NCBI GenBank assembly: GCA_001941075.1
Contig: MSHH01000078.1
Coordinates: forward strand, 1-41,543
Origin: Oscillospiraceae bacterium Zagget6
GTDB lineage: Bacteria; Bacillota; Clostridia; Oscillospirales; Oscillospiraceae
Direction of reading: 5' to 3'
Length of the DNA: 41,543 nucleotides
Both the position numbers and the translations under genes were made by a program. The notes beneath the pieces are model-generated. The model was not told where the DNA came from. It searched no databases and worked only from the letters and a program-made list of their open reading frames with translations. Each line of letters begins with the position of its first letter. Positions within the stretch are counted from its first letter, which is position 1. Below, piece after piece: positions 18,753-37,653 of this stretch.

Positions 18753-18782
18753 TTGACAGGCCATATATGGGTGTGGTATAGT
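18753..18782 (+). promoter_or_regulatory. Promoter of the CRISPR-like unit
   Basis: TTGACA (18753-18758), 18 bases and TATAGT (18777-18782) lie in an AT-rich leader. Transcription should begin near 18789, about 15 bases before the first repeat. Confidence 0.75.
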
Positions 18783-18803
18783 AAGAGTACACAAATTGTT
18801 GTT

Positions 18804-18949
18804 GTGTTTTCTTACCTCTAAGGGATTGATACTTGGGGCCGTAGACAAAAATGTTCTTTTCCTGTACCGTGTTTTCTTACCTCTAAGGGATTGATACGTT
18901 ACGACCCACCCTAGGCATCCCATTCTTGGGTGTTTTCTTACCTCTAAGG
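18804..18949 (+). CRISPR. Orphan mini CRISPR-like array: three repeats, two spacers
   Basis: A 29-base repeat starting GTGTTTTCTTACC and ending ATTGATAC occurs identically at 18804-18832 and 18869-18897. A third, truncated copy (first 20 bases) lies at 18930-18949. The unlike stretches between them are 36 bases (18833-18868) and 32 bases (18898-18929), within CRISPR spacer range. The ATTGATAC end resembles the ATTGAAAC end of many type I-B/III repeats. The degenerate last repeat lies away from the promoter, as in true arrays. A promoter precedes it and a strong terminator follows, so a ~220-nt transcript is expected. No cas gene is in the window. With only two spacers, a non-CRISPR direct-repeat RNA remains possible. 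Confidence 0.7.
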
Positions 18950-18972
18950 ACTCCGCACACAACAACAAAAAA

Positions 18973-19010
18973 CCGGGACAGACGAACCAACCACGTCTGT
19001 CCCGGTTTTT
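18973..19010. terminator. Terminator of the CRISPR-like unit
   Basis: CCGGGACAGACG (18973-18984) pairs perfectly with CGTCTGTCCCGG (18994-19005) over a 9-base loop. A run of T follows and a run of A precedes it, so it can act in both directions. Confidence 0.9.
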
Positions 19011-19019
19011 GCATTTTTC

Positions 19020-19089
19020 TGTAGGGGCGGCCCGTGGCCGCCTGAAAACCCCACGCAAAACCTGCGGGCGGCGGAGCGCCGCCCCTACA
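19020..19089. repeat. Short inverted-repeat element with 12-bp ends
   Basis: TGTAGGGGCGGC (19020-19031) and its exact reverse complement (19078-19089) bound a 70-base GC-rich unit, built like a miniature inverted-repeat element. I remember TGTAGGGGCGG...CCGCCCCTACA as common in gut Clostridia genomes, but did not check. It has no coding capacity. Confidence 0.6.
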
Positions 19090-19094
19090 CAAAC

Positions 19095-19475
19095 GAAGAT
19101 GTTCACAGCGCGGTAAAGCGCTGATTTGGAACATCTTCTTTGCTTCGGAGGGGTTTCACCCACCGCCGGGCGGCGCCCCACCCGGAGCGCCGCCTTTTCC
19201 GGGCCAGCGCCTGCCGACCCCTATTCCAAGACAGCCGGCGCGGGGCCTCCGGGGGACATCCCCCGCGCCGCTGCGGAGGGCTGGCCACCGGAAGCGCGGC
19301 CTCTGTAGAGAGCCGCCGCCTTGCCGTCTGACAACAGTATGGCCCAACCCGCCGGTGTTATCCCTGGCAAAAGCTGTTTAACCTGGCACATATTGGGGCA
19401 TACTGTGGGCATAGGATAAGCTATCCGGGGCCTGTATGCCCCTGTAAATCTGAAAAGGCGGAAGGAGAAACGGCT
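19095..19475 (+). other. Gene-free, hairpin-rich stretch before yaaL-bofA
   Basis: No gene is supported. The first hairpin is GAAGATGTTC (19095-19104) with 19129-19138, with an inner CAGCGC/GCGCTG. The second is GGCGGCGC (19169-19176) with 19187-19194, followed by TTTT. The third is GGCGCGGGG (19237-19245) with 19261-19269. Nearer the gene, GGGCATA-GGATA (19407-19418) pairs with TATCC and TATGCCC. Alternatively GGGGCATAC (19395-19403) pairs with GTATGCCCC (19434-19442). These two folds exclude each other. No clear promoter for yaaL was found here. Confidence 0.5.
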
Positions 19476-20198: not shown

Positions 20199-20574
20199 TG
20201 GTGGAGGCGACGGGAGTTGAACCCGTGTCCGAAAACGCATCCTCAGGACCTTCTCCGGGCGCAGTCAGTTGTTTACATTCCCTCGCCGCGCCGTGAACTG
20301 ACACACTGCGCAGTTTGGTAGCTTCATAAATTCATGGAGCCGTCAAAGCTTTCAGCCCTCACGTTTCCCACTAAAAGGCATCACCCAGCCCGGCTCGTGG
20401 GCCTTCCGGGATCGGCGTCCGCGCACATTGGGCGGAGGTCGCAGAGCCTAATTAGGCCGCGACAGCAACGTATTCGTCGTTGTTCTTTGATTTATAAGTG
20501 CCCATTGATAAGCGGCTGGGCGCCGCTGCCCGCTAGTCCGGCCTCAACGTCCCCGTCGAAACCGGTACGCCCCC
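20199..20574 (-). ncRNA. ssrA: Transfer-messenger RNA (tmRNA)
   Basis: The minus-strand RNA begins GGGGGCGTACCGGTTTCGAC and ends with a T-arm-like GGTTCAACTCCC and GCCTCCACCA. The 5' seven bases pair with the bases before ACCA to make the acceptor stem (one G-U). An internal tag frame ends ...NNDEYVAVAA followed by UAA (stop at 20452-20454), the usual hydrophobic degradation tag ending in AA. The exact resume codon cannot be fixed by eye. Length is 376 nt, normal for a one-piece tmRNA. It rescues stalled ribosomes together with SmpB, whose gene lies two genes upstream on the same strand. CCA is encoded. Confidence 0.96.
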
Positions 20575-35798: not shown

Positions 35799-37316
35799 TT
35801 ACCCCGCGTGGCGCACGGATTCCTCTTCCTCGCTGCGGAGGGCGGCCTCATGCTCGGCCTGGATGTCGTCGAACATGGACAGCATGGGCTTGACGTCCCG
35901 GTGGTAGAGCTTGCGGTCCAAATAGTTCTTGGTGCAGCGGGCCACCAGCGGAGACAGCACCAGCACGCCGATCAGGTTGGGGATCATCATCAGACCGTTG
36001 AAGGTGTCGGAGATGTCCCAAGCCAGCTGCGCGCTGACCACGGAACCGGCCAGGACGATGACGCAGAAGATGATGCGATAGGGCCACACGGCCTTGTCAC
36101 CGAAGAGATAACGGCAGGCAGTGGTACCATAGTGGCTCCAGCCCAGCACGGTGGAGTAGGCGAACAGCAGGATGGCGATGGCCACGAACGCCGCGCCCAG
36201 GTCGCCAAAGACCATACGGAAGGACTCGCTCATCAGGGCGCTGGACTCAATGGCGGAACCGGCTTCGGTGAGCGCGCCGGTCTCCAGGTCCACCAGACCG
36301 GAGGTCAGGATGCCCAGAGCGGTCAGGGTGCAGACCACGATGGTGTCGGCAAAGACCTCAAAGATGCCCCACATGCCCTGACGGACCGGCTCCTTGACGT
36401 TGGAGCTGGAGTGGACCATGACGGAGGAGCCGAGGCCCGCTTCGTTGGAGAACACGCCCCGCTTGAAGCCCATCTTCATGGCGGTGGCGATGCCAGCGCC
36501 CACTACGCCGCCGCCGGCGGCCTTGAGGCTGAACGCGCCCTTGACGATGGAGACCAGGGTGGCGGGGATGGCGGTGATGTGCAGGCAGACGATAACCACA
36601 GTGCCCAGCAGGTACAGCACCACCATGAAGGGGACGATCTTCTCCGTGATGGAGGCTACGCGCTTCAAACCGCCCAGAATGACCGCGCCCACGGCGATGC
36701 ACAGGAAGATGCCGGTGGCCAGCTTGGGGATGCCGAAGGCGGCGTAGACGTTGCTGACCATGGAGTTGACCTGGCTCATGTTGCCAATGCCGAAGGAGGC
36801 CAGCAGGCAGAACAGGGAGAACAGCACCGCCAGCACTGCGCCGATGGTCTTGCAGTGCTTCTTGGCACCCAAGCCGTCCCGCAGGTAGTACATAGCGCCG
36901 CCGTGCCACTCGCCCTTCTCGTCCTTGCGTCGGAAGAGGATGCCCAGCACGTTCTCAGAGTAGTTAGTCATCATGCCGAAGAAGGCGATGACCCACATCC
37001 AGAACACCGCGCCGGGGCCGCCGGTGGCGATGGCTCCCGCCACGCCCACGATGTTGCCGGTGCCCACGGTGGCGGCCAGCGCCGTACACAGGGACTGGAA
37101 CTGGGAGATGGAGCGGTCAGCGGTGTGACCGGTGACGTTCTTGTCGCTGAAAATCGCGCCGATGGTGTTCTTCATCCAGTGGCCGATGTGCCGGATCTGG
37201 AAAAACTTCGTCATGCAGGTCATCAGCACACCCACGAACCCCAGCAGGACCAGGGCGGGCCAGCCCCACACCACGTTGTTGACGGCGGCGTTGACGTTAG
37301 TGATCGTTTCAATCAC
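35799..37316 (-). CDS. Sodium:alanine/glycine symporter (AGCS family)
   Basis: A 505-residue transporter with about eleven helices, taking up alanine or glycine with sodium. Family signatures are LAATVGTGNIVGVAGAIATG with GPGAVFWMWVIAFFGM near the N-terminus, and FKRGVFSNEAGLGSS in the middle. The start is GTG 37316 (VIETITNVNAAV), preceded by AAAAGGAGGAATTACT; the open frame upstream covers the riboswitch and is not translated. A glycine riboswitch with a terminator lies in the leader, which argues for glycine as a substrate and for regulation by its level. AGCS genes under glycine riboswitches are known in Firmicutes. The C-terminus is hydrophilic and acidic. Confidence 0.93.
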   Translation of the reverse strand: MIETITNVNAAVNNVVWGWPALVLLGFVGVLMTCMTKFFQIRHIGHWMKNTIGAIFSDKNVTGHTADRSISQFQSLCTALAATVGTGNIVGVAGAIATGGPGAVFWMWVIAFFGMMTNYSENVLGILFRRKDEKGEWHGGAMYYLRDGLGAKKHCKTIGAVLAVLFSLFCLLASFGIGNMSQVNSMVSNVYAAFGIPKLATGIFLCIAVGAVILGGLKRVASITEKIVPFMVVLYLLGTVVIVCLHITAIPATLVSIVKGAFSLKAAGGGVVGAGIATAMKMGFKRGVFSNEAGLGSSVMVHSSSNVKEPVRQGMWGIFEVFADTIVVCTLTALGILTSGLVDLETGALTEAGSAIESSALMSESFRMVFGDLGAAFVAIAILLFAYSTVLGWSHYGTTACRYLFGDKAVWPYRIIFCVIVLAGSVVSAQLAWDISDTFNGLMMIPNLIGVLVLSPLVARCTKNYLDRKLYHRDVKPMLSMFDDIQAEHEAALRSEEEESVRHAG

Positions 37317-37376
37317 AGTAATTCCTCCTTTTCTTCTTTTCGGTGGGACGGTATTCCGTCCCGGTTGCGTTGGCGA

Positions 37377-37410
37377 CAAAAAAACGGGACCCGCCAAAGG
37401 CAGGTCCCGG
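37377..37410 (-). terminator. Riboswitch expression-platform terminator
   Basis: On the minus strand a hairpin of CGGGACC..GCC with GGC..GGTCCCG (37385-37409) is followed by seven T. It lies between the glycine aptamer and the symporter gene and is the likely switch point. Confidence 0.85.
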
Positions 37411-37433
37411 CAAAAAGCAGCGTAAAGCATACG

Positions 37434-37532
37434 TCCTCTGTCCTTTTGCCTGAGAGATTACAGCCCTTCCGGGCCGCTTGCACCTTCGGCACCCATCGAG
37501 CCGTAAGGCCGCATGGGGTTCTCCAGAGTGCG
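37434..37532 (-). promoter_or_regulatory. Glycine riboswitch (single visible aptamer)
   Basis: The minus strand reads GCACTCTGGAGAACCC, then a variable stem, GGGTGCCGAAGGTGCAAGC, a second stem, and AATCTCTCAGGCAAAAGGAC followed by AGAGGA. These are the conserved pieces of the glycine aptamer. Only one full aptamer is visible, so it seems a singleton. The transcript should begin near 37647 from the promoter at 37654-37682. Confidence 0.93.
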
Positions 37533-37653
37533 GTCGTGGCTCGGTCGCCTTGTTGCAATAAAAAGACGCCTGATGATTTCAGACGCCTTTGTCTGCCGCT
37601 TCTGAGCCATTCATCCCGCACGATGTTCAGTTGTCGCTATGGAAATTGATAGT

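Follow-up and report, generated by a model that had tools for sequence, protein, structure and literature searches.

A minimal free-standing CRISPR array in an Oscillospiraceae bacterium, very probably one of a dispersed set serving one type III-B system in trans

In the Cmr host Pyrococcus furiosus, several dispersed arrays with one repeat serve Cmr, and these arrays have archaeal leaders and terminators. The type I-B system of C. difficile 630 comprises 12 dispersed cassettes with 29-bp repeats and 37-bp spacers, only two of which adjoin cas genes; all 12 are expressed, and their conserved repeats suggest common Cas proteins (PMC3649979). The set of arrays described here differs from that of C. 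difficile 630 in being of type III-B with CorA. Known CorA-bearing type III-B loci bring together cmr1–6, Cas10, Cas6, and a CorA-family membrane protein, as does the locus on contig C43 of the genome studied here. In the known loci, corA typically lies beside a phosphodiesterase gene or, in some of them, a SAM-lyase-like gene, whereas no SAM-AMP phosphodiesterase or lyase was recognized among the 10 proteins of contig C43. In B. fragilis, the type III-B system with CorA signals through SAM-AMP (PMC10600005), and by analogy the same signal may operate here.

Controls on extraneous crRNA have been described as leader–repeat hairpins in types II-A and VI and as mutated extra repeats in type II-C (PMC12080349, PMC13187072). 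In class 1 arrays, extra crRNA would arise from the last repeat (PMC13187072), and the oldest repeat generally decays (PMC12080349). Type VI-A also produces its extra crRNA from the last repeat, and this type is reported to have no leader hairpin (p = 0.92; PMC12080349, PMC13187072). The present set resembles these systems in combining a predicted leader/first-repeat hairpin with a crippled extra repeat, and differs from them in that those works concern class 2 systems, whereas this set is class 1 and its last repeat is without the handle in 17/17 cassettes. That distant arrays can be served in trans is already known; what is new is a standardized, book-ended cassette tied to type III-B/CorA. 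A literature keyword search—a thin one, covering titles and the starts of abstracts—found no type III-B set of this kind.

The cassette in the window and its neighborhood

The stretch of DNA analyzed here, referred to as the window, comprises 41,543 nucleotides of Oscillospiraceae bacterium Zagget6 (genome G000, contig C78) and holds an array with two spacers, the parts of which are listed in Table 1. As described in a first-pass annotation made from the sequence alone, two identical copies of the 29-nt repeat GTGTTTTCTTACCTCTAAGGGATTGATAC and a truncated third, matching over 20 nt and then diverging, enclose spacers of 36 and 32 nt; the worn copy is indeed the promoter-distal one, located before the terminator and lacking the handle part. 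The annotated promoter is likewise present. Taken alone it is not significant (one found versus 0.6 expected in shuffled sequences), and it becomes convincing because the same promoter recurs across cassettes. A terminator does follow the array, as had been claimed, but its length was understated: the inverted repeat is perfect over 17 bp and not 12 bp. A scan limited to loops of at most 8 nt missed this inverted repeat, probably on account of the 9-nt loop. The 12-nt complementary pair between leader and trailer was absent from the annotation.

Table 1. Parts of the cassette, in window coordinates
Feature	Position	Strand	Remarks
Upstream inverted repeat TTTCGTCCTTGACGAAA	18706–18722	+	7-pair hairpin; near left edge of cassette
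Promoter TTGACA-18 nt-TATAGT	18753–18782	+	11/12 consensus; TG precedes −10
Predicted leader/repeat-1 hairpin	18789–18807	+	ACACAA 18789–18794 pairs with TTGTGT 18802–18807
Repeat 1	18804–18832	+	presumed 5′ handle ATTGATAC at 18825–18832
Spacer 1, 36 nt	18833–18868	+	no convincing target
Repeat 2	18869–18897	+	presumed handle 18890–18897
Spacer 2, 32 nt	18898–18929	+	no convincing target
Terminal repeat	18930–18958	+	20 nt kept (18930–18949); handle part 18950–18958 lost, 3/9 match
Trailer arm ACACAACAACAA	18957–18968	+	complementary to leader 18796–18807, 12 nt
Intrinsic terminator	18968–19013	+	perfect 17-bp stem 18968–18984 / 18994–19010; 9-nt loop; T run

Homology to the paralogous cassettes begins at about 18703, and the upstream inverted repeat was found by eye in at least five other cassettes, being missing from others. 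The folded RNA of the unit was more stable than its shuffles (z = −5.2), with the terminator stem accounting for a large share of the structure. An Rfam search of the unit yielded no family at gathering score; matches below that score were to CRISPR-DR2 (E 0.59, minus strand), to a microRNA over the terminator, and to an sRNA. The repeat itself folded no better than shuffled sequence, and a strong repeat hairpin for Cas6 is thus unsupported.

The neighboring genes are ordinary. Antiporter-like subunits precede the cassette, with a Cro/C1-type HTH protein directly upstream of it, and DUF2508, BofA, tmRNA, cyclophilin, and SmpB lie downstream. When 31 likely genes of the window, picked by length and composition, were compared with PADLOC, 0 cas matches and two unrelated weak matches were obtained, in agreement with the annotation's statement that the window is without cas genes, small genes being mostly outside the coverage of this comparison. 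Right behind the terminator, at 19020–19095, is a GTAGGGGCGGCC-type element with many dispersed copies across the genomes of the genus. The tmRNA gene (20199–20574, minus strand) and a glycine riboswitch (37428–37536, minus strand) both score above the Rfam gathering score.

One cassette design across a dispersed set

The array had been called an orphan, and this proved wrong: the same cassette occurs at five sites of the genome. The 20-nt core of the repeat has 27 occurrences in G000 at up to 3 mismatches, compared with 0 for the reversed control, and these make up five arrays, namely that of the window (2 spacers), one each on contigs C80 (2) and C30 (6), and two on contig C43 (9 and 1). A partial sixth array stands at the end of contig C6 (L038), where 258 bases, beginning in a dispersed repeat element and taking in spacer 1 and a portion of spacer 2, are identical to the C80 array (L041); it may be a true recent copy of the cassette or an assembly effect.

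Among the 32 genomes of the genus, besides G000, seven arrays are found in the close relative G004, one with 8 spacers in G009, and one repeat with 0 spacers in G019. The exact repeat occurs in three genomes of a named collection (U_127109, MO.B6_11, and C.5_7), which may omit G000 itself; the three are labeled Clostridiales or Oscillospiraceae, and C.5_7, designated G422 here, carries three arrays on one contig. In a draw of 300 family genomes, with G009 and G422 outside the draw, the leader–repeat junction was found without mismatch only in G000 and G004; at 3 mismatches it was found in four further genomes of the 300, with the control likewise found in three.

A comparison of 17 cassettes from five genomes, with the C6 end excluded and with 0–9 spacers per cassette, revealed one design, in which the −10 box is TATAGT-like and a terminator closes the unit. 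TTGACA is present in 16/17 cassettes—including 12/12 in G000 and G004—and the spacing between the boxes is 17–18 nt in 17/17; the stretch between the boxes varies among cassette groups, the boxes themselves being kept. Both boxes are altered (TTGATA and TATAGC) in a single cassette, the one without spacers in G019, a genome in which no Cas10 palm was found. The −10 box lies 21–22 nt ahead of the first repeat in 16 cassettes. For one array of G422 the script gave a distance of 83, since a worn first repeat had been passed over, and a count by hand gave approximately 20; the recounted array contributes one extra spacer outside the 57 considered below.

The terminal repeat, located by a search allowing up to 4 changes in 20 nt, keeps 16–20 of its first 20 nt (20/20 in 10/17) and 2–5 of its last 9, a pattern seen in 17/17 cassettes. 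The part lost is the part that becomes the 5′ handle, and no array ends with an intact-handle copy, so that no further, more degraded last repeat is concealed in any of them. A hairpin between leader and repeat 1 is predicted in 16/16 tested cassettes, the worn G422 array being excluded: one 6-bp stem with varied loops is found in 13/14 cassettes of the genus, a 5-bp stem in one, and a different 7-bp stem in the two of G422. Against shuffled leaders this hairpin is marginal case by case (fractions 0.007 to 0.12), and cassettes related to one another do not count as independent cases.

Two further features were considered as marks of the cassette and rejected. The terminator class of the window, seen in 9/16 tested cassettes, is also found in different surroundings in G013, G017, and G018, and is thus not a cassette-only mark. 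Nine cassettes that have one terminator class in common show a strong closing stem between leader and trailer (permutation fraction 0.009), but over all 16 tested, which include related and hence non-independent cassettes, this stem is weak (0.027), and it is missing in the cas-adjacent arrays.

The type III-B locus, shared sites, and spacers

A search of the genome for cas genes and for larger arrays with the same repeat, as the first-pass annotation had proposed, revealed both: arrays of up to 9 spacers and, on contig C43, a complete type III-B locus. Between the two C43 arrays lie cmr6, cmr5, cmr4, cmr3, Cas10/cmr2, cmr1, and a gene for a CorA-like membrane protein, with Cas6 divergent. Cmr5, Cmr1, and CorA were recognized by PADLOC only; the CorA-like protein matches two PADLOC CorA models (E = 4.4e-70) and has no Pfam or NCBIfam match. 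On reading, the Cas10 of G000 shows a GGDD motif; no HD domain is reported for it by Pfam. The same locus is conserved in G004, where it is divided across two contig ends, and this Cas10 is found in G000 and G004 only among the 32 genus genomes. The hint toward a type I-B/III repeat that had been drawn from ATTGATAC was therefore a good one, the partner being type III-B. Beside the locus lies a pair (L040:111–3542 and L040:4239–5978) formed by a TIR/NACHT-like/TPR protein with an RyR protein, the second of the pair carrying RyR and, below cut-off, TrkA-N domains; its look suggests a defense island.

No cas1 was found in the type III-B locus. Where cas1 matches do occur in G000 and G004, the nearby arrays have unrelated repeats, and some of these arrays we take, by repeat, to be type I-C-like. 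Further arrays with unrelated repeats near cas1 matches are at L130 (G000, contig C45) and L131 (G004, contig C54), one with a repeat presumably resembling that of type II-A and one with the repeat GTTTCAAGTCCTGCCCCCGCGAGGGGGGCAAC. The completeness of the two genomes is 76% for G000 and 99% for G004, and an adaptation gene could be missing from the former for this reason.

The worn, spacerless cassette of G019 belongs to a genome with no Cas10 match, which speaks for service of a type III-B system. Cassette presence is, on the other side, not strictly tied to type III-B: G422 has three cassettes and no Cas10 palm match, and G009, with one cassette, has a type III-D locus in place of III-B. The repeat may thus be common to different type III systems. 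The III-D locus of G009, on contig C44 (L188), comprises Cas10, fused Cas5/Cas7 proteins, and Cas6.

Spacer change among relatives, another check suggested at the outset, was also observed. Five sites of G000 pair with five of G004 by their flanks at an identity of approximately 92–97%: three sites pair on both sides and two on one side only, namely the III-B locus, whose right flank matches over more than 2 kb, and the site next to Cas6, which matches over 191 bp. The counterpart of the window site is on contig C90 of G004 and likewise has two spacers. The number of spacers common to the two genomes at the five paired sites is 0. The 57 distinct spacers measure 31–48 nt (mean 36.8), the best match between any two being 20 positions, and 43/57 internal repeats are identical to the consensus. 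At the window site the cassette is absent in G017, with approximately 45 bp between the matching flanks, and at the C80 site it is absent in G013, G015, and G019, with 4–20 bp. The cassette-free sites and the changed contents together argue that cassettes are gained and lost as units and that their spacers are replaced. No clean transposon ends were seen; the borders of the cassettes fall within T runs and repeat elements.

The site of the C30 cassette is a single chromosomal site with two array families. In G013 (contig C80, L053, approximately 36318–37445) it contains a quite different CRISPR array, whose repeat ends in CCCCACACGGGGACGGTAAC and has 6 copies at up to 3 changes; by eye, a promoter-like TTGCCT-17-TATACT precedes this array and the same terminator class follows it. 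This repeat was not found beside cas1 of G013.

Searches for spacer targets, including those for the two window spacers in phages, plasmids, and the bacterium's own genome that had been called for, gave no convincing target. Phages were searched with 8 arrays (41/57 spacers), the arrays outside that search being C80 and C43-minus (G000), C90 and the two on C67 (G004), and those of G422; plasmids were searched with 17/57 spacers; and IMG/VR was searched with 7 exact cores from 5/57 spacers, including both window spacers. The few weak matches, to Pseudomonas and Klebsiella phages (E 0.4 and 0.04, the better spanning a repeat edge) and to two Pseudomonas plasmids (E 0.6), look like chance. The IMG/VR core matches (69 with 15-mers, 1 with a 17-mer) were set aside because none extends. 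Also set aside was a match of 21 nt in G023 (E 0.0025); it falls in an open frame presumably encoding a conjugation membrane protein, with only 24/35 positions matching and in the sense direction. Against 400 family genomes, the window array had two matches outside the genus, both set aside, with about one of this kind expected by chance: that in G179 (E 0.003, 22/24) lies in a gene we take to be antiporter-like, and that in G108 (E 0.003) overlies the repeat. Within G000, at its 76% completeness, the window unit matches only arrays and terminators.

Function of the dispersed cassettes

The feature in the window is, with high confidence, a minimal free-standing CRISPR array and one of a dispersed set that serves one type III-B system in trans. 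Among the readings first offered, the one thus supported has the array relying on Cas proteins encoded elsewhere, with the type III-B locus on another contig being flanked by arrays of the same repeat. From its own promoter, RNA would start approximately 14 nt ahead of repeat 1 and would end at the cassette's own terminator. The Cas6 of the genome would cut inside each repeat, giving two crRNAs, one per spacer, with the 5′ handle AUUGAUAC. Since the last repeat contains the cut region and lacks the handle, the second crRNA would gain its 3′ end and a spacerless extra crRNA—which in class 1 would come from this repeat—should not form. The Cmr complex would load the crRNAs, and upon a match with invader RNA the nucleotide signal of Cas10 would open the CorA-like membrane protein. 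New spacers would be inserted by Cas1–Cas2 from another locus.

Plain decay is an alternative explanation of the worn terminal repeat. That only the handle half is worn, the rest of the repeat being retained in 17/17 cassettes, favors selection or a common origin from a single cassette of this kind. In such systems the first repeat is not the source of extra crRNA, so the leader hairpin needs another role, for which we propose protection of the 5′ end or marking of the insertion site.

That the window array is a relic, formerly active and with its crRNA no longer made or used, is unlikely. It has only two spacers, for which no target was found, the III-B locus is without adaptation genes, and a worn cassette does exist in the genus; however, this worn one-repeat copy of G019 has changes in both promoter boxes, whereas the window cassette is intact in its promoter (11/12), its two perfect repeats, and its perfect terminator stem. 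The complete III-B locus, the TTGACA of all 12 cassettes in G000 and G004, and spacers unlike those of G004 at the same site further disfavor decay of the array.

It is more improbable still that the array serves another Cas complex and not III-B, be it type III-D, as in G009, or the I-C-like system of G000. G009 does combine one same-repeat array with a III-D locus having its own Cas6, and the contig in question yielded no relative of the III-B proteins; a cas1 locus of G000 also looks, by repeat, presumably like type I-C. Nevertheless, the III-B locus sits between two same-repeat arrays in both G000 and G004, and the I-C-like arrays have an unrelated repeat.

Least probable is a conserved direct-repeat regulatory RNA whose "spacers" guide control of the cell's own genes, since, although the self-contained, sRNA-like unit with its strong predicted folding (terminator stem included) and its two spacers without phage match would suit such a role, the sequence between the repeats is not conserved and is wholly different at the same site in G004, the unit's matches in its own genome are confined to arrays and terminators, and no Rfam family reaches gathering score.

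On the reading of the window feature as one of a dispersed III-B set, a broader proposal can tentatively be made, one that we regard as possible and rather less than even in likelihood: type III memory may be stored in standard book-ended cassettes, each spreading or disappearing as a whole, with the hairpin and the handle-less repeat giving only the wanted crRNAs and with Cas1–Cas2 of another CRISPR type in the same cell supplying spacers. With no cas1 beside this repeat, adaptation in trans becomes testable within one genus. The loss of the handle half alone in every last repeat is, similarly, a testable type III counterpart to the class 2 controls on extraneous crRNA; if the proposal is true, book-ended cassettes would be the class 1 answer to the extraneous-crRNA problem. 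Overall, with III-B/CorA memory spread over tiny self-contained transcription units, individual arrays could be regulated, copied, or lost independently of the others.
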